A stretch of 21,015 bases of DNA from IMG/VR virus record IMGVR_UViG_3300028025_003779, positions 1 through 21,015 of that record. One strand, written 5' to 3'. Each line of letters begins with the position of its first letter. Positions within the stretch are counted from its first letter, which is position 1. The DNA comes from a virus. The notes beneath the pieces were generated by a model that was not told the DNA's origin, made no database searches, and saw nothing but the letters and a program-made list of their open reading frames with translations. Shown one piece after another: positions 188 through 14,090 of this stretch. The position numbers were made by a program, and so were the translations under genes.

Positions 188-2389
188 TTAAACGGTACGT
201 ATGGACACGTACACAATGCCACCAAAACCCGTATATCTACGATCCGGTGGGCTAGTACGCTCAAAACTTAACTGCTCAATAACACCAGTAACTTGTTCAC
301 CAGTAGTAAAGTCTTGAATGATGACTGTATCTCCTGCAGCTTCAAGTGTTTCAAGTGTTTGTAAACGTTCCCAAGCACGACCTTCGTGACCAGTCATTAC
401 ACCATAACGATCTGATTCAAAATCAAAATTAAGTAACGGAATGGTTAATTGGCGTGCACGATTAACAGCAGGTAAAGACTTAACTTGGTACCCATCAAAC
501 TCTGGACCTTTAGTTGTGTCTGTTGTGTCACGATTAAAAGTAAACTTAAAAGCTAGTTCTTCTTGTGGTGTGCTTATGTTAGTTGTTAAATCAGTATTTA
601 ACGCTGGAACAGAACCAGCAATGGTGATGATGGAGTTTATGTCACCATCAACTTCTTTAGTTGAGATAACACAAGTACCAAACATTGGTGTGTTAAAACG
701 TGGTTTAATTAACTTGAAGTATTTCTTTTCAACAGTTGCATATCTGACGAAACCTGTTGTTATGTAACCTGTTTCAGTGAGAGTGTTAGCATCTTCAATG
801 TAAACATAACCATCGGTACCATTATTGTTAGTACAGAAAGCAAGACGTTCACTGCCGTTAACAAAAGCACAAGCAGTAGTTGAACGGTTCTGATCCTCAT
901 TATAATACAAATCGTTTGCGTAAGCAAAACGTAACGGTTCAATTTCTTTAGATAAATCAATACGTGTCACACCAGGTTTACCATTAACATTTGTGGCAGC
1001 CCAAACAAAATTATCTCTGGCAGCAAAATCGTAAACAGGTTGCTCAGTATGAACAATCAAAGGACCATAAGTTAATGAACCATCATCAGAAACTGTGGCA
1101 ATGCGTACACCTTTAGATGTACCAATCATCATATAACCAAGGTAGTAATAGATTTTATAAACAACTTCACCAGCAGGCATCTCAGCTGCTGTGATAGCAG
1201 ATGTTAATGTTGGCATAACACCGGATGAGTTCAAAGTAAACTTGTAAATGTTTGATTGAATACCGGAATATCCTGCAACATAAATGGCAGCACCTGATGC
1301 TGTGATACTTGTAAAAATATGATCATCATCGCTATGTGTATACACAGCTGTAGGTAAAGCTGATGCGCTTGAAGAGAACTCGTACACTTTATCATTAGCG
1401 CACATAACAATACGTTCTTTAACATATTCAATAACAGCGTTAGTAACCGTGATACCAGGAGAAGTAAACATTACTGTTGCAGCAGTAGAAGCAGTACCAG
1501 TCAAAACCTTCTTATTGACCTCAAGTTTACCTGAAACAGTATCATTAGTAACCCAATATGCTGTTGTACCATCATCACAGATAGAAAACACAGGGTCATC
1601 TGTGCCAGTGTTGTAGTCAATGAAATGGATAACGTTTGTTATACCTGTACCAACAGGTGACACAGCAGTAGAAGTAACGTTAGATGCTGTTTTAGCGTAA
1701 GTAAAAGTTGTTGTAGTTGGAACACCAGTAATAGTATATGTACCATTGAATGTTGCATCAACACCTGTGATAGTAATTTCCATACCAACACATAGCCCGT
1801 GTGCTGCTGTTGTTGTTAACGTGGCAACGTTAGAAGTAAGAGCCTTATTGTTTATTGAAACAGTTATGGTTGGGAAAACTTTGTCAACATCAAACTCATC
1901 GTGGTTTAAAACACCTTCATAGGTGTTACTGTTTTGTGCCCATTTGATAGAGCGTAAGAACTGCCAAGGTCTACCGTTAGCACGAATAGCACCAGTGACC
2001 TGATGTGTTGCAGAAACATTTTTTAAAAGAGTAGCTTGACCTGGTGTCCAAACATCAACACCTTCAGAGTCAAAAAACCTGTACTGAACATTCTCACTTA
2101 CATAAGGATCAAGATAGTTAATACCAGAACCATTATGGAAAGAAGATTGTGATCTTAACCACCAACCCTCAAAGGATTGCTCGCCAACTTCTTTAGTGTT
2201 ATCAAACTGTTGCTTACGATACGTAGCTGTTTGGCGTTGGTAAGGGTACTTATCTGATGAGGCAAGAAGGAAAGGTTCACCACCTATAGCAATATCATAA
2301 ATATTACTGGTGTTAGTATAAAGGTTTTGGGTTGTTGAAGCAATACCAATCGGGGAAACTATCGGTTCTGTAATACTTTCAGTTGCCAT
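188..2389 (-). CDS. large tail protein, possible propeller or nozzle type
   Basis: A 733-residue protein, last gene of the operon. Its beginning (roughly residues 25-85, with NIYDIAIGGEPF, YPYQRQTATYRKQQFD and a GWWLRSQSSFH stretch) is the type of N-terminus seen in tail proteins of aquatic and actinobacterial phages. Residues about 183-245 form a compact threonine/valine-rich beta module (AHGL...FNGTYTITGVPTTTTFTYA) that recurs as an inserted domain in many phage tail proteins and resembles the FCCH-like module. Residues about 255-600 alternate short hydrophobic strands with turns, as expected for a beta-propeller. T7-type nozzle proteins are propellers, so this could be a tail nozzle or a host-contact protein; that is inference. 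ATG start with AAGGAG 6 bases upstream; it overlaps the preceding gene by 11 bases. Confidence 0.75.
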   Translation of the reverse strand: MATESITEPIVSPIGIASTTQNLYTNTSNIYDIAIGGEPFLLASSDKYPYQRQTATYRKQQFDNTKEVGEQSFEGWWLRSQSSFHNGSGINYLDPYVSENVQYRFFDSEGVDVWTPGQATLLKNVSATHQVTGAIRANGRPWQFLRSIKWAQNSNTYEGVLNHDEFDVDKVFPTITVSINNKALTSNVATLTTTAAHGLCVGMEITITGVDATFNGTYTITGVPTTTTFTYAKTASNVTSTAVSPVGTGITNVIHFIDYNTGTDDPVFSICDDGTTAYWVTNDTVSGKLEVNKKVLTGTASTAATVMFTSPGITVTNAVIEYVKERIVMCANDKVYEFSSSASALPTAVYTHSDDDHIFTSITASGAAIYVAGYSGIQSNIYKFTLNSSGVMPTLTSAITAAEMPAGEVVYKIYYYLGYMMIGTSKGVRIATVSDDGSLTYGPLIVHTEQPVYDFAARDNFVWAATNVNGKPGVTRIDLSKEIEPLRFAYANDLYYNEDQNRSTTACAFVNGSERLAFCTNNNGTDGYVYIEDANTLTETGYITTGFVRYATVEKKYFKLIKPRFNTPMFGTCVISTKEVDGDINSIITIAGSVPALNTDLTTNISTPQEELAFKFTFNRDTTDTTKGPEFDGYQVKSLPAVNRARQLTIPLLNFDFESDRYGVMTGHEGRAWERLQTLETLEAAGDTVIIQDFTTGEQVTGVIEQLSFERTSPPDRRYTGFGGIVYVSIRTV

Positions 2390-2603
2390 TATGCTCCTTC
2401 AGATGGTTAATCATTTCTTCAGTTAAAAAATCAATACGATGCTCAATACGTTTAATAGAATCAGCCATAGATGAACCACCATTAGGTTTCAATTCCTGCA
2501 AATAATTCTTCAACCAGTTCTTAAAAACCCAAGCCAAAGCCGAAATGATAATAACAACCCCGGCAAGAGCTGTGGCAGCTAAAGCAGCATTCTCCAAAAC
2601 CAT
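2379..2603 (-). CDS. small membrane protein with helical tail
   Basis: A 74-residue protein. Residues about 5-32 form one hydrophobic segment (alanine/valine/isoleucine-rich, ending AWVFKNWL), followed by a polar C-terminal half (SMADSIKRIEHRIDFLTEEM) that looks like an amphipathic helix or short coiled coil. One membrane span plus a helical tail fits a small holin or a lysis accessory protein, and its place after the peptidase and another small membrane protein supports a lysis role. No catalytic motif is visible. The ATG overlaps the stop of no gene behind it but overlaps the next upstream start region by one base (TAATG with the 65-residue gene). Function not established. Confidence 0.7.
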   Translation of the reverse strand: MVLENAALAATALAGVVIIISALAWVFKNWLKNYLQELKPNGGSSMADSIKRIEHRIDFLTEEMINHLKEHNGN

Positions 2604-2800
2604 TACTTTTTGTCCTCATCCTCAAACGTGACCTCAGACAAGGTCCAAAAAAGGAAAGCAAAAATGATGGCAACACCAACAACACCACGGGTATCACCAG
2701 GTGGAAGAACAATCCAAGCGATAAGCAGACCTACAAGTGTGAAGGACTCTGCGAACCAAGCACGGAAGTGTCGCCCAAGAAAGGACAAGACACGTTTCAT
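2603..2800 (-). CDS. small two-span membrane protein, holin-like
   Basis: A 65-residue protein with two hydrophobic segments, about residues 17-33 (FTLVGLLIAWIVL) and 40-55 (VVGVAIIFAFLFWTL), a short PPGDTRG turn between them, a basic N-terminus and a very acidic/lysine C-terminus (EDEDKK). This is the layout of class II holins, small proteins that permeabilise the inner membrane so that peptidase reaches the wall. The start is an ATG in a 4-base ATGA overlap with the preceding gene, preceded by GGAGGG. Two other membrane proteins nearby could equally be the holin, so the assignment is by topology and context only. Confidence 0.7.
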   Translation of the reverse strand: MKRVLSFLGRHFRAWFAESFTLVGLLIAWIVLPPGDTRGVVGVAIIFAFLFWTLSEVTFEDEDKK

Positions 2801-3774
2801 TTAACCCTCCTAGGGTTTGCTAGTTGTGATACGATAATTGCACCAAGAACCACCTGTTGTGCCTCACGGCGTTCCTCAGGTGTAAACTCGGAACCAAGAT
2901 TATTAACAAATTGGGCGGCAGCAAGAACTTGCTCGCCACCAGGAATGGACTCTAATGCAGAACCTATGGATTCAAATATTTGTTGGACTGACTCTGGCAA
3001 ACTTAACGAATCATCTTGTACAACATCTTCTTGATCTTGTACAACTTCATCAACTAAGGAAAGGTCGCTAGATGTTAACTCCTCAACAGGTTGCTCTGAA
3101 ACGTCTGGCTCAACTGGAGCCACAGATTCTTGATCTTCTACAACTAGCTCGTCTAGCAAAGACTCTGGAGACGGTTGAACCACTGGAGAATTATCTTGAT
3201 CGGGAAGATTCTCTGGTTGTGACTGAGTCTCTGAAGGAGTCGGAGAAGGTTCAGGAGATGGTTGCTCATTTGAAGTCTCAGATGGGCTTGGAGTAGGTGT
3301 CAGAGTTTCAGTTGGCGAAGGGCTTGGCTCTGGTGTCACTTCTGTCACTGTCGGTGATGGGCTTGGCATACTTACTGTTAAATTTGTAGACAACAAATAA
3401 GACCCAGTAGGATATTGATTGCAACATATATAAGCATATGATGTTGCGCGAATAAAATATTCACCAGCAGTTAAAGGCATAGTAATAATAGATGCCAAAA
3501 TGTTTGTTGCACTATGTGCACCATCATCATTATAAGCAAGCCTGACAGCACCTTGCCAAATCTCAATCCAAGAATCAATAAACCCAGGATTAGTTTGAGG
3601 AGTACCAGTAACAGTTGACACAGTTGCATCAACCGGTTCAGTAATAGTTACCGGAACATCCACATAAGGTGTTGATTGATCAAGGTTAATTGTTACATCA
3701 TCAGAGTATGATGGTCGTGCGATAAGAGTTGTTAAAACAACAATCGCTATTATCGCAGAGAATCTGCGAAACAA
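2797..3774 (-). CDS. secreted protein: signal peptide, PPC-like domain, Pro/Ser/Thr stalk
   Basis: A 325-residue protein of unusual build. Residues 1-24 are a typical signal peptide (two arginines, long hydrophobic core, probable cut after SYS). Residues about 45-134 match the pattern of bacterial pre-peptidase C-terminal (PPC) domains: an aspartate/strand block (DSWIEIW), YNDDG, then LTAGEYFIRATSY and a closing GSYLLSTNL. Residues 137-205 are a proline/serine/threonine/glutamate stalk with SPSPT-type repeats; 206-255 are strongly acidic; the last ~65 residues are helical, ending in a hydrophobic stretch and basic tail. The only usable start is TTG at 3774, one base after the peptidase stop, with no clear ribosome site, so translation is probably coupled. 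An export signal is unexpected in a virion operon; it may act at the host surface or wall. Role unknown. Confidence 0.75.
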   Translation of the reverse strand: MFRRFSAIIAIVVLTTLIARPSYSDDVTINLDQSTPYVDVPVTITEPVDATVSTVTGTPQTNPGFIDSWIEIWQGAVRLAYNDDGAHSATNILASIITMPLTAGEYFIRATSYAYICCNQYPTGSYLLSTNLTVSMPSPSPTVTEVTPEPSPSPTETLTPTPSPSETSNEQPSPEPSPTPSETQSQPENLPDQDNSPVVQPSPESLLDELVVEDQESVAPVEPDVSEQPVEELTSSDLSLVDEVVQDQEDVVQDDSLSLPESVQQIFESIGSALESIPGGEQVLAAAQFVNNLGSEFTPEERREAQQVVLGAIIVSQLANPRRVK

Positions 3775-3775
3775 T

Positions 3776-4177
3776 CTATACCGCTAAAACGTCTTTAGGG
3801 TCAACATCTTTAGAAGCAGACCAACGTGCACCATCTCTTACTTCAAAATGAAGATGAGGACCACTTGAGTTACCAGTATTCCCAGATTCAGCAATATGTT
3901 GACCTTTTTTAACCTTGGCTCCAGCTTTAACAAAAGTTTCTGAACAGTGAGCATATATCATCCAAAGGTCTTTACCATTGATATTGGCCTTAACAATAAC
4001 TTGTTTACCGTAGGCCGCACCCCAGTTGTTGCCTTGAACTACACCATCACAGGCAGCAACAATGTCAGTACCTGTTGGTACAGCAAAGTCCACACCTGTA
4101 TGTTTTCCTGATTTCCACATCTTACCTTCTTTACCGTAAGGTGTGGTTATTTTTCCGTTAGCAATAGGGAGACCCAA
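3776..4177 (-). CDS. M23-family (LytM-type) peptidoglycan endopeptidase
   Basis: A 133-residue zinc peptidase that is essentially only the M23 catalytic domain. All signature residues are present: H26 and D30 in HTGVD, H77 in YAH, and H108/H110 in GPHLHFEV. In this family the zinc ligands are the first His, the Asp and the last His, and the other two histidines are catalytic. These enzymes cut peptide bridges in peptidoglycan. There is no signal peptide and no wall-binding domain, so it could be a minimal endolysin released by a holin or a virion-borne lysin used at entry; the holin-like neighbours favour the former. The start is TTG at 4177 with AGGTGG 7 bases upstream, right after the holin-like gene's stop. 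Confidence 0.92.
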   Translation of the reverse strand: MGLPIANGKITTPYGKEGKMWKSGKHTGVDFAVPTGTDIVAACDGVVQGNNWGAAYGKQVIVKANINGKDLWMIYAHCSETFVKAGAKVKKGQHIAESGNTGNSSGPHLHFEVRDGARWSASKDVDPKDVLAV

Positions 4178-4429
4178 TTATTTGCCACCTTTACCTTTAG
4201 ATGCTTTCTTAAATACTTCGTCTACTTCAGCTTGAGATAGTTCACCGTCTTTTAGGAACGCTTTAGCTAGATCTGTTACTACACCTGCTACTGCTAGGCC
4301 TCCAGCGATCGCTGCTGCTTTAACTGGTTCTACTCCAGCAAATGCACCAACACCTACTGATGGTAGTGCAAAAGATATGAATAAAGCTAGGCTTCTTAGT
4401 ATTACATCTTTAATTACTTGTAGTGTCAT
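4178..4429 (-). CDS. holin candidate
   Basis: An 83-residue protein with two hydrophobic stretches (about residues 8-32, ILRSLALFISFALPSVGVG, and 38-57, KAAAIAGGLAVAGVV) and a charged tail ending KGKGGK. The N-in, two-span hairpin with basic tail is holin-like, and it directly precedes the M23 peptidase, the usual holin-lysin pairing. I chose the ATG at 4429: it makes a 4-base ATGA overlap with the previous gene and has GGAAG about 7 bases upstream. An in-frame ATG at 4444 would add five residues (MGRTT) and has a weaker ribosome site. Exact holin family not identified. Confidence 0.75.
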   Translation of the reverse strand: MTLQVIKDVILRSLALFISFALPSVGVGAFAGVEPVKAAAIAGGLAVAGVVTDLAKAFLKDGELSQAEVDEVFKKASKGKGGK

Positions 4430-4773
4430 TGTTGTTCTTCCCATTCTTTTTTATCTTCATTCCATATATAATTTTTATCATCTGTTGGGTATGGAATAGG
4501 GGCTTCCCAACGATAAGTTGTTTCATTTAAAGTCCAAGAAGGATAAGGTTGTGGGTGATAAAAAACATCACGTTCTTCATCATAAACCATTCCAATACCA
4601 GCAAAATTAAACCTTAAAGGTGTACCGCCTAAAGCGTGAACACCATCTCTTGTATTATATGATGTTTGTACCCATTGACCTGTATATCTATCAGAATTAT
4701 TGTTAAAAAAATCTTCATCAACAGAATTAACTTGTACAACAATTCCGTTTTCTATTTTAGCATAATGAGCCAT
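4426..4773 (-). CDS. conserved phage structural protein (marine/cyanophage type)
   Basis: A 115-residue protein I recognise as a widespread hypothetical protein of marine and cyanophage genomes. Its hallmarks are the opening MAHYAKIENGIVVQV, a central WVQTSYNTRDGVH, then GIGMVYDEERDVFY, a proline/aromatic stretch PQPYPSWTLN and a tryptophan-rich end (WEAPIPYPTD, YIWNEDKKEWEEQQ). In those phages it usually sits among tail-fibre or adhesin genes, as here, directly after a glycine-rich adhesin-like gene. It may be a small fibre-associated or chaperone protein; no function is established. Its ATG shares one base with the preceding stop. Confidence 0.8.
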   Translation of the reverse strand: MAHYAKIENGIVVQVNSVDEDFFNNNSDRYTGQWVQTSYNTRDGVHALGGTPLRFNFAGIGMVYDEERDVFYHPQPYPSWTLNETTYRWEAPIPYPTDDKNYIWNEDKKEWEEQQ

Positions 4774-5696
4774 TAGTTTGCATACCTCACTATAACTATT
4801 CCTTTACCACCATTACCGCCTGCTACAGCGTTAGAAGCACTTCCTGCTCCTGAACCACCGCCACCTGTATTAGCGGTACCGTTAGAACCTGCACCATTAC
4901 CATTACCTGCAGCACCACCACCATTACCACCAGTTGTGAAAGCATCACCATATCCTCCGCCTCCACCACCACCTGCATACCAGTAAGTACCACTTACGTT
5001 TTGTCCTGTGGATGTTGCTAAACCCCAATTAGAATAAACAGATGAACCATTTCCACCACCTGCTGCTTTAACGTTGTTGCCACCAGAAGCACCTACTGCT
5101 CCAGCACCACCGCCACCACCGCCAGCAGTTATACTTAAAGTTCCATTAAATGTTCCAGCGCCACCGTTATATCCTTGTAGTGTTGTTGCAGTACCACCAC
5201 CGTATTGCGTAGCAGAGTTATTACCACCACCACCACCGCCAGAACCACCAGTTCCGCCAGCAACAGCTCTGTTTACAGAAGCACCAAATCCGCCACCTTC
5301 TGCTGCAGTCAATGAACCAAATTGACTATTACTTCCTTTAGAACCGTTATAGTAAGTACCACCAGATTGTGCTGCACCACCATTACCGCCTGCGCCAACA
5401 GTTGTTGTATAACCTGTGCCACCTGTTAAAGATTGTGCACTGAAAAAAAGAAGTCCGCCTGCTCCTCCGCCACCACCCATATTGTTACCGCCTCCGCCGC
5501 CACCACCGGCGATAACAAGAATGTCAGCAGTTAAATTAATAAGAGGTGTGAAAGTTCCATCGTTTAAAAAAGTATGATAAGTATAGCCACCTGATTGTGT
5601 TATAGTTCCACCTGTTGCTAAATAACCAGAAGCACTATTAATTGAAGTATATTTTCTTCCAACTAATCTAGAGTTACTAAACTTAGTTATAGCCAT
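4773..5696 (-). CDS. glycine-rich adhesin-like tail protein (paralogue 1)
   Basis: A 307-residue protein. Residues 1-60 are a non-repetitive head (GRKYTSINSASGYLATGG, then a beta stretch YTYHTFLNDGTFT). From about residue 63 it is dominated by glycine runs separated by short polar or aromatic pieces (NSQFGSLTAAEGGG, TSTGQNVSGTYWYAGG), closing with GGKGIVIVRYAN. This is the glycine-rich domain found in phage adhesins; polyglycine-helix tips such as T-even Gp38 contact host receptors. A receptor-binding tip is therefore likely but inferred. It is a clear relative of the protein at 6035-6916, with the same order of motifs and the same ending. The start ATG overlaps the preceding stop by one base. 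Confidence 0.8.
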   Translation of the reverse strand: MAITKFSNSRLVGRKYTSINSASGYLATGGTITQSGGYTYHTFLNDGTFTPLINLTADILVIAGGGGGGGNNMGGGGGAGGLLFFSAQSLTGGTGYTTTVGAGGNGGAAQSGGTYYNGSKGSNSQFGSLTAAEGGGFGASVNRAVAGGTGGSGGGGGGNNSATQYGGGTATTLQGYNGGAGTFNGTLSITAGGGGGGAGAVGASGGNNVKAAGGGNGSSVYSNWGLATSTGQNVSGTYWYAGGGGGGGYGDAFTTGGNGGGAAGNGNGAGSNGTANTGGGGSGAGSASNAVAGGNGGKGIVIVRYAN

Positions 5697-6034: not shown

Positions 6035-6916
6035 TTAGTAAATATATCTAACGATGACTACACCAGATCCACCAGCAGAACCAGAAACAGCACTATTAGC
6101 AGAACCACCACCTGCTCCACCACCGCCAGTATTTGCTAAACCTGCTGTACCAGTTCCATTATCACCAGTACCACCACCACCAGAACCACCTGCAGTAGTT
6201 TGACCAATGTTAGTTGATAAACCTCCACCGCCACCGCCAGCAAACCAATATGTTCCTGAAATGTTTTGACCTGTAGAAGTTATAGAACCCCAAGTAGAGT
6301 AAGTAGATGTTCCAACACCACCGGCACCATTACCTGCATTAACTCCAGCACCGCCAGCACCACCACCACCTCCACCACCACTGTTAGTGTTTAAAGCAGA
6401 GTTAGTTGAACCATTACCGCCAGCATTACCTTGACCAGATGTTGCAGAACCACCTGTGCCGCCAGCGTAACCATCTAAGTTACCACCACCACCACCGCCA
6501 GAACCGCCAGTACCACCTGCTTTATTATTGGTATAACTTATATAACCAGCTCCACCAGCACCGCCACCAACAGCAGCAGTTAAAGAACCAAATTGTGAAT
6601 TACCACCTTGAGAACCAGCAGTTTTAGCAGCACCAGCAGCGCCACCAGCACCAACAGTTATTGTGTAATTTTGAGGTGTAACAGTTTGATTAGCAAGATA
6701 AACAACACCACCAGCACCGCCACCGCCACCACACCAACTTCCACCACCGCCACCGCCACCGGCAACAGCAAAAATATCAACTTGGCCACCATTAGTTACA
6801 GTAAAAGTTGATGTACCTGTAGTAGTAAAAGCGTGATATTTGTATTGACCTGAAGTGTAAACAGTTCCACCAGTTGCTTCAACATTAGCAGAACCAAGAG
6901 CGCCAAGAAGTAACAT
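6035..6916 (-). CDS. glycine-rich adhesin-like tail protein (paralogue 2)
   Basis: A 293-residue protein related to the one at 4773-5696. It opens with a short hydrophobic stretch (MLLLGALGSANVEA) and a beta block (GQYKYHAFTTTGTSTFTV), then long glycine runs broken by NSQFGSLTAAVGGG, STWGSITSTGQNISG and TYWFAGGGGGG, ending GGSGVVIVRYIY. These landmarks appear in the same order in the paralogue, so one probably arose by duplication. The N-terminal 14 residues are hydrophobic but lack a basic leading region, so I do not call a signal peptide. Probably an alternative or additional receptor-binding tip. ATG start with AAGGGG upstream. Confidence 0.8.
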   Translation of the reverse strand: MLLLGALGSANVEATGGTVYTSGQYKYHAFTTTGTSTFTVTNGGQVDIFAVAGGGGGGGSWCGGGGGAGGVVYLANQTVTPQNYTITVGAGGAAGAAKTAGSQGGNSQFGSLTAAVGGGAGGAGYISYTNNKAGGTGGSGGGGGGNLDGYAGGTGGSATSGQGNAGGNGSTNSALNTNSGGGGGGGAGGAGVNAGNGAGGVGTSTYSTWGSITSTGQNISGTYWFAGGGGGGLSTNIGQTTAGGSGGGGTGDNGTGTAGLANTGGGGAGGGSANSAVSGSAGGSGVVIVRYIY

Positions 6917-9623: not shown

Positions 9624-9944
9624 TTATATTCCTAACTTAGAGATAGCCTTTGCTACCTTCTTATTGGCAAGCCTATGCGCCGGGGCCATCTTCTCCCCAT
9701 TGTAAGGTTTACCAAGATTTTCACTAGCAGTAACAGCATCTTTCACTGCCTTCATACTTGTACCAGCAGGTTGAATACCTTGTTTTCTGGCATCAGCATA
9801 AGCATTAAGTTCAGCGTCCCACTTCTTACGGGGGACAACACGCATATGTGCTGCATCACCAGGATGCAATTCTAACGTTGCAGCCTTACAACCAAAACAT
9901 CCTTCAACATAATCAGGATGGGTTCTCTGCCTGTGTAGCGACAT
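9624..9944 (-). CDS. conserved hypothetical phage protein with CxxC motif
   Basis: A 106-residue protein with an N-terminal HPDYVEGCFGCKAATL block; the CFGC pair could be half a metal site. The rest is KKWDAELNAYADARKQGIQP followed by helix-rich text (MKAVKDAVTASENLGKPYNG). The HPD..EGCFGCK and KKWD.EL.AY..AR.QGIQPAGT blocks recur in actinophage structural clusters without a known role. The ATG at 9944 lies 32 bases inside the end of the glycosyltransferase gene and has an excellent GGAGG seven bases upstream, which fixes the start. Confidence 0.75.
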   Translation of the reverse strand: MSLHRQRTHPDYVEGCFGCKAATLELHPGDAAHMRVVPRKKWDAELNAYADARKQGIQPAGTSMKAVKDAVTASENLGKPYNGEKMAPAHRLANKKVAKAISKLGI

Positions 9945-10983
9945 AGTTTTCCTCCAACCACTTCAAGTTATCTTGCAAGCGCCCGTCCTTTGGGTTAGCC
10001 TCAAGGGCTATCTTTGCAAACTTAACAGCCTCATCTTTTTTACCAAGTTGCCAACCAGAAACAGATAACAGATCATAACAACGCCAGTCCCAAATAGACT
10101 TGTCGTTTAAATAATGTGTTGATGGTTCAAGTTCATTAACTTTATTTGCAGCGTCCCAACAACCTTGCCAGTTACCAACAGTGTAAGAAAACTGTGCAAA
10201 ACTAAACCAAGGTTCAAGTTCATTAGGATTTTCTTTAATGGCTCGTTGAAACCATTTCAAAGCATTTTCGTTATTACCAAGTTCCTGTGAAGCCTGACCA
10301 GCAGCACGACACACAGCTGAGCGTTCAACATACCAACCACCTGCGTTCAATGTTGCAAAAGCAGTTTCAATAACTTTGTCCCACATTCTGTGAAAATAGT
10401 ATTCACGTGTGAGATAGGCCCACATTCGTGCATCGCGTGGATCTTCGTGCACAGCAGCCTCAAGCATAGGCAAATAATAAGTTCTAGCCTTAGTGTCATC
10501 AGGTTTATGAAACACAGTCAAATCGTACTCTAAAGTTTTCTCATCACCAGGAGTATATTTAAAAGTTACTTCGTGGCAAGGTTTAATCCACCTGTACCCG
10601 TGCCTACGGTGCAATCTGTTATTGTTTTTCCATTTATTACCGGTGTCCCACCAAACCCAACCACGATCCGTGTCAGCTTCCCACGTCTCGCGCACTGTGT
10701 GAAAGAAACCCTTTTCAGGTATCTCATCCATATCAAGTGATAAACAAATGTCTATGTTGTCTGGGATTAAAGCAAGGGCTGCGTTTCGGGCATCATCAAA
10801 CCTAAAAGGTTTAATACTGATTTGGTGCACGATAACATTTGGTGCTGCTTGCAGTAGGGCAACGGTTCTGTCTGTTGAGCCAGTGTCTACTACCACACGT
10901 AGGTCTGCGTCACGTGTTCCTTCTAACCATCGCATTACGTGTTTTTCTTCGTTTAATGCTATTGTGTATGCTGCTATTTTCAT
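9913..10983 (-). CDS. family 2 glycosyltransferase with TPR-like tail
   Basis: A 356-residue protein in two parts. Residues 1-160 form a GT-A (family 2) glycosyltransferase domain: YTIALNEEKHV at the N-terminal nucleotide site, VVDTGSTDRT at 31-40, and the metal-binding DXD motif as DMDE at 84-87. Residues about 165-345 are paired helices of tetratricopeptide type (e.g. GNNENALKWFQRAIKENPNELEPW at 236-259, GKKDEAVKFAKIALEANPKD at 314-333), often a protein-binding surface in such enzymes. It would move a sugar from a nucleotide-sugar to an unknown acceptor. Its seat inside a virion operon suggests a virion protein, or the host surface, as acceptor. ATG with GGGGA five bases upstream. Confidence 0.88.
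   Translation of the reverse strand: MKIAAYTIALNEEKHVMRWLEGTRDADLRVVVDTGSTDRTVALLQAAPNVIVHQISIKPFRFDDARNAALALIPDNIDICLSLDMDEIPEKGFFHTVRETWEADTDRGWVWWDTGNKWKNNNRLHRRHGYRWIKPCHEVTFKYTPGDEKTLEYDLTVFHKPDDTKARTYYLPMLEAAVHEDPRDARMWAYLTREYYFHRMWDKVIETAFATLNAGGWYVERSAVCRAAGQASQELGNNENALKWFQRAIKENPNELEPWFSFAQFSYTVGNWQGCWDAANKVNELEPSTHYLNDKSIWDWRCYDLLSVSGWQLGKKDEAVKFAKIALEANPKDGRLQDNLKWLEENYVATQAENPS

Positions 10984-13052: not shown

Positions 13053-13053
<1 letters not shown>
12043..13053 (-). CDS. modular tail fibre protein
   Basis: A 336-residue protein built of typical fibre modules: an N-terminal LKYYNTTTSAWEYIAA block; a VFINGVLQVRGSDYTATTGTSI module seen in cyanophage fibres; a shaft-like DAKGDLIAGTAADTVGRLAVG ... 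LTAASGESTGLKWV; and a C-terminal beta domain of about 150 residues. The start is set at 13053 rather than 13095: the ATG there makes TAATG with the preceding stop and has AGGTGG six bases upstream, while the longer form would run back over the end of the collagen-like gene. Likely a receptor-binding fibre working with the collagen-like protein immediately upstream. Confidence 0.8.

Positions 13054-14090
<1,037 letters not shown>

Follow-up and report, generated by a model that had tools for sequence, protein, structure and literature searches.

A stalked exported protein with exchangeable heads and its two-transmembrane partner beside the lysis genes of actinophages

In the window, that is the whole 21,015-base stretch of viral DNA analysed here, a gene for a stalked, predicted exported protein shares its strand with capsid and tail-like genes. 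The stalked gene lies among small membrane-protein genes and lysis genes, with the following features:

2379..2603, minus strand: 74-aa protein with one N-terminal transmembrane segment and a charged helical end (phrog_9869, function unknown)
2603..2800, minus strand: partner protein of 65 aa with two transmembrane segments, in ATGA overlap with the stalked gene (hydropathy, adjacency)
2797..3774, minus strand: stalked exported protein of 325 aa, TTG start (open reading frame; at least 133 related loci)
2800..2988, minus strand: conserved C-terminal module with a short hydrophobic core and basic tail, residues 263-325 (alignments with various heads)
2805..2811, minus strand: AGGAGGG, ribosome-binding site of the partner gene within the Arg-Arg codons of the tail
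2989..3159, minus strand: acidic stretch, residues 206-262 (33% D/E)
3160..3366, minus strand: Pro/Ser/Thr stalk, residues 137-205 (63% P/S/T over 136-205)
3367..3702, minus strand: PPC-fold head, residues 25-136 (Pfam matches of relatives, AF2, Foldseek, NF038127)
3703..3774, minus strand: signal peptide, residues 1-24 (sequence and rule set)
3776..4177, minus strand: M23 peptidase, presumed endolysin (Pfam PF01551, 1.8e-29; PHROG endolysin families)
4178..4444, minus strand: holin-like protein of 88 aa (phrog_443 holin, 3.6e-5)

A sequence-only reading of this locus had pointed out the TTG start right behind the peptidase gene, a signal peptide, a Pro/Ser/Thr stalk of some 70 residues and an acidic stretch, and all of these stand. 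The start lies one base after the M23 stop, the N-terminus displays a charged n-region, an h-region and a cleavage-like site between SYS and DD, and stalk and acidic stretch have the compositions listed above. Only two Lys or Arg residues occur across residues 25-300. The holin-like protein has a stronger PHROG match, phrog_26427 (1.4e-14), labelled nuclease, which is at odds with its small size and hydrophobic character. The 74-aa protein is possibly a further lysis membrane protein, whose membership of the cassette we infer; in isolate E7 (see below), a 68-aa ORF (L112:10182-10388) appears similar to it. Upstream of the lysis genes, two glycine-rich proteins (4773-5696 and 6035-6916) and a collagen-like GPTGATG protein (13053-14090) are presumably tail parts, and a glycosyltransferase-like gene with possible TPR repeats (9913-10983) lies within the structural region.

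The head had been proposed to be a PPC-like domain at residues 45-134. Its fold and the profile matches of its relatives agree with this, although the window protein itself gives no match to Pfam PPC (PF04151) at E<=1 or E<=10, and the modelled domain is wider, covering residues 25-136. Among 45 relatives, 17 match the Pfam profile, weakly and over nearly its whole length; the best of ten scored singly reaches 4.4e-5 and 24.7 bits at profile positions 6-69 of 70, short of the curated cut-off of 25.9 bits. The NCBIfam model NF038127 (DVUA0089 family) matches the window head at residues 29-115 with 1.9e-6 and 28.4 bits for a cut-off of 29, and two relatives score 27.9 (L074) and, as printed, 29.0 bits (L075); this model resembles the head region and includes neither stalk nor C-terminal module. 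The AF2 model of the head, built with 45 sequences, shows eight strands at a mean pLDDT of 93.9. Its top PDB match is the PPC domain 5sv5 (TM 0.65/0.68, E 1.2e-3); 5sv5 and 1nqd are the top Foldseek matches (probability 1.00, query TM 0.65-0.66), ColG collagen-binding domains match with TM 0.58-0.68, and no PDB match reaches E<=0.001. In a viral structure library, the nearest entry is A0A6J5NU56, an uncharacterised protein of an uncultured phage (67% identity, TM 0.97), evidently a member of the same family. With respect to ligand or calcium binding, a conserved Asp-Asp pair is all that is seen. The fold resembles PF04151 and ColG domains and the relatives' profile matches lie near threshold; we regard the head as a PPC-fold domain bordering on the curated families. 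Known PPC domains are mostly parts of secreted enzymes, whereas here the domain forms the tip of a non-enzymatic stalked protein.

The same domain plan recurs in at least 133 distinct loci of IMG/VR actinophages, a count which, coming from pattern-based scans, is a lower bound and not a census. Stalk and C-terminus are common to at least three head types, which were found both by searching with the C-terminal module and by searching with the partner gene. Among the 107 loci with a complete 5' end, 69 carry a PPC head, 25 a head C (TTVTCADPQG...GWDNSN...YCEGG; L239, L259, L337-L358), 12 a head B (VVCNTYTYTG...; L225, L238, L334, L336) and one a minimal head (L331). A full-length AF2 model of a head-B member has a mean pLDDT of 44.2. 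On a tree of the neighbouring M23 proteins, built on 130 columns and with many unresolved forks, head types switch at least nine times where three changes would be the minimum, indicating that phages have exchanged either heads or endolysins. The PPC, head-B and head-C forms gave no match in the INPHARED phage collection at the sensitivity of the tblastn searches, the stalked protein none in plasmids, and the pair formed with its partner, as a whole, matches no curated Pfam or PHROG family; nothing was found in the literature on such a protein in freshwater actinophages. The family and the pair thus appear to be undescribed. Matches to PHROG 15511/38031, Med13, Trypan_PARP, TonB and PD-T4-6 were discarded, as all or most of each lay within the low-complexity stalk.

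Proline-rich spacers and beta heads are also known from phage fibres, and tail-fibre-like genes adjoin the cassette, so the stalked protein might belong to the virion, for instance as a fibre or a decoration protein. We consider this very improbable, since a simple signal-peptide rule set is satisfied by 105 of the 106 complete family members, under different heads, and the gene has a constant membrane partner.

The spacer between head and C-terminal module measures at least 100 residues in every head class (medians 133, 110.5 and 118) and is essentially devoid of Lys and Arg throughout the family. In comparisons with five close relatives (Nei-Gojobori, few sites, hence rough), dN/dS is about 0.1-0.4 in the head and at least 1 in the stalk, while the C-terminus shows almost no amino-acid change. 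Such a length floor together with a free sequence looks like a spacer that is constrained in length only. By our estimate of ~0.31 nm per residue, 100-190 extended residues would span roughly 30-60 nm and cross a thin Gram-positive wall. Two members are unusually long, with extra acidic or helical stretches before the C-terminal module (L336:2008-3507, 500 aa; L075:2-1384, ~460 aa); the tail of the latter is Gly-rich and strongly basic.

At the C-terminus, the hydrophobic end and basic tail noticed earlier are both present, but the core of about 13 residues makes no canonical transmembrane helix in the window protein (KD19 only 0.59). The corresponding stretch, into which the motif N[LV]G[ST][DE].T.E.RE.[AS]Q.VV...I..Q[LI]...RRxK leads, exceeds the transmembrane threshold (KD19 1.6) in 60% of PPC-headed relatives. 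The Arg-Arg codons of the window tail, AGG AGG, are at the same time the ribosome-binding site of the partner gene, and an AGGAGG-like site lies in the tail codons of 87 of the 133 loci. The basic tail is thus real, but the overlap may account for part of its conservation. A reading of the tail as a plain topology signal was set aside in view of these 87 loci, yet the basic residues are kept in the other 46; as weaker purine-rich sites are present there, the two causes are not fully separated. No LPXTG motif occurs in the window protein or in the aligned C-termini, and on its sequence the stalked protein is not a sortase-anchored surface protein.

The family has a constant neighbour. A gene for a protein with two transmembrane segments, as judged by hydropathy, directly follows the stalked gene in all 131 copies with at least 320 bases downstream, the junction being most often a 4-base overlap. 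The pairing is independent of how the loci were fetched: it holds in 107/107 cases found via the stalked protein or its C-terminus and in 63/63 found in the other direction, with the reservation that the partner profile was seeded from stalked-gene neighbours and could miss very distant partners elsewhere. Against known holin families, the partner has no Pfam match and reaches a PHROG holin family only at E 0.64. Actinophage lysis cassettes commonly encode proteins with two transmembrane segments (PMC9671378, PMC13056207).

The pair might control the timing of lysis: the head would sense external conditions such as superinfection or cell density, and the C-terminus would signal to the partner acting as holin or antiholin, with a logic like that of T4 RI and holin T. 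A variable head, a conserved transmitting end and a constant two-transmembrane partner suit this idea, and holin-like proteins with two transmembrane segments set lysis timing in Mycobacterium phages (PMC13056207). However, a separate holin-like gene is present and there is no direct sign of sensing. T4 RI, moreover, has no such stalk. We regard timing control as improbable, and still a little more so its modular form, in which an exchangeable sensor head, a wall-spanning spacer and a membrane end would command a dedicated two-transmembrane holin or antiholin. If true, such a switch would occur widely among phages whose hosts are the most abundant bacteria of fresh waters.

In all 64 loci with enough sequence, both an M23 and a holin-like gene are found no further than 3.5 kb from the pair, in more than one order, the M23 gene being upstream in 53 loci and downstream in 11. 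In L018-type loci, opposite-strand genes separate M23 and pair, so that the pair can form a transcription unit of its own; the gap contains no known RNA. At L018:4909-6101 and in similar loci, a glycosyltransferase-like gene and a second gene of unknown kind occupy this place, possibly as late-inserted accessory genes. In head-B and head-C phages, M23 is followed by a second small exported protein of ~150 aa, with a signal peptide and a beta-looking sequence (L225:3753-4211, L235:3808-4266, L238:3743-4201, L239:3815-4264); it belongs to no Pfam family above cut-off and is an undescribed member of the same cassette.

This neighbourhood bears on two other readings. The stalked protein could be an exported wall adhesin serving to keep the endolysin at the wall or to supply it there, or its secreted binding domain could have another accessory role unrelated to lysis: secreted enzymes and collagenases often carry PPC domains as accessories, and M23 adjoins in most loci. 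The opposite-strand genes that part pair and M23 in several loci, and the fact that the constant neighbour is a membrane protein rather than M23, make this improbable as well. Somewhat less doubtful, though still unlikely, is receptor masking or superinfection exclusion, in which the displayed head would hide or occupy receptors, so that rival or sister virions fail to adsorb to the cell or its debris. Masking is in keeping with the export of a head on a long spacer, with the variety of heads among related phages, as expected for variable receptors, and with a pair that can stand apart from the endolysin gene. On the other hand, its place beside lysis genes in 64/64 loci suggests late expression, which is late for exclusion; masking does not need a constant membrane partner, and the PPC head shows conservation, not diversification.

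The acI bacteria dominate fresh waters, and they are the probable hosts here. In its capsid protein, the window shares 67.7% identity with LanE43AprE7/F5, the next being Streptomyces phages at 54.6%. These two isolates infect 'Ca. Planktophila', and WhiB, an actinophage indicator (PMC10202952), is encoded in 16 of 20 related contigs; on these grounds the host is most likely a freshwater actinobacterium, probably acI. Isolate E7 has no stalked gene, and the nearest isolated acI phages lyse their host without it (PMC10202952); the module is thus optional and not generally required for lysis. The stalked protein had also been likened to a host cell-surface protein of an architecture to be sought elsewhere. 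Export, a PPC-fold head on a stalk and a position in the lysis region are supported, and the architecture is widespread in IMG/VR phages, but no relative was confirmed among 84,980 species genomes searched with exact 8-residue patterns, which distant copies could escape, and no close cellular copy was seen, acI being only crudely covered. A scan aimed at acI genomes with a rhodopsin query gave no matches in genomes titled as actinobacterial, and WhiB was absent from the 26 of these genomes tested. With wide carriage by phages and no confirmed cellular relative, this is best seen as a family of phage proteins with a head similar to extracellular domains of bacteria. Placement at the surface, an effect on the wall or blocking of other phages are plausible, putative roles.

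Little is known of how lysis is completed by phages of Gram-positive actinobacteria. From an architecture and a pairing that are directly observed, we infer that the two genes form an envelope module of freshwater actinophages acting at or near host lysis in the manner of LysZ or a spanin, a reading which we favour tentatively, at somewhat less than an even chance. A late role in the envelope is favoured by the unvarying membrane-protein neighbour and by the surrounding lysis genes. The stalked protein would be secreted by the Sec route, and its C-terminal helix and the two-transmembrane partner would keep it tied to the membrane, both the tether and the contact with the partner being putative. 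The stalk would hold the head at or outside the wall, where it would bind an envelope polymer; when holin and M23 endolysin act, the pair would help to disrupt or release the remaining envelope. Heads would vary, we propose, because surface polymers vary between hosts. In support of this lysis-associated role are the partner (131/131), the lysis genes (64/64), one stalk and C-terminus under at least three heads with nine or more head changes, the signal-peptide features (105/106), the spacer floor of 100 residues, purifying selection on the head, and WhiB as a pointer to actinobacterial hosts. Against it, neither protein matches a family known to act in lysis, the window C-terminus has no clear transmembrane helix, E7 does without the gene, and opposite-strand genes intervene in some phages. 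A widespread, strictly paired module would be either an extra component of actinophage lysis or a late surface-protection device, and its exchangeable heads may report the surface polymers carried by the hosts.

Two-component spanins (Rz/Rz1) likewise consist of two coupled, overlapping genes beside the endolysin gene, with one exported product and an envelope-spanning element. Unlike in their case, the likely host, probably actinobacterial, would have no outer membrane, and the stalked protein has neither a lipobox, with no cysteine around the cleavage site of the window protein or of aligned relatives, nor an N-terminal transmembrane segment with a coiled coil; as far as its sequence tells, it is not a spanin. 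The T4 antiholin RI senses from outside, as an exported domain, and thereby controls a lysis protein of the membrane, but it is short and has neither a stalk nor an exchangeable head. LysF1a and LysF1b of Mycobacterium phages (PMC13056207), small proteins with two and one transmembrane segments, are comparable to the products of 2603-2800 and 2379-2603, the latter being like LysF1b, by layout and not by sequence; no stalked exported partner is described in their cassette. LysZ of Corynebacterium phages CL31 and Cog, compared here by its description, is an actinophage lysis protein whose extracellular part is proposed to act on lipid-anchored envelope glycans, and it offers a precedent for an extracellular lysis factor of this kind (PMC13056207). 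Lysis proteins of the LysZ type are marked by small plaques upon deletion, an effect relieved in hosts with glycan defects. It has 177 aa and a single N-terminal transmembrane segment, N-in/C-out (PMC13056207), whereas the stalked protein has a signal peptide with a cleavage-like site, a distinct head, a long spacer, a hydrophobic C-terminal membrane end and a dedicated partner gene. Signal peptide and C-terminal membrane end would place its N-terminus outside; by this topology it is not LysZ, but it may work like LysZ or like a spanin.
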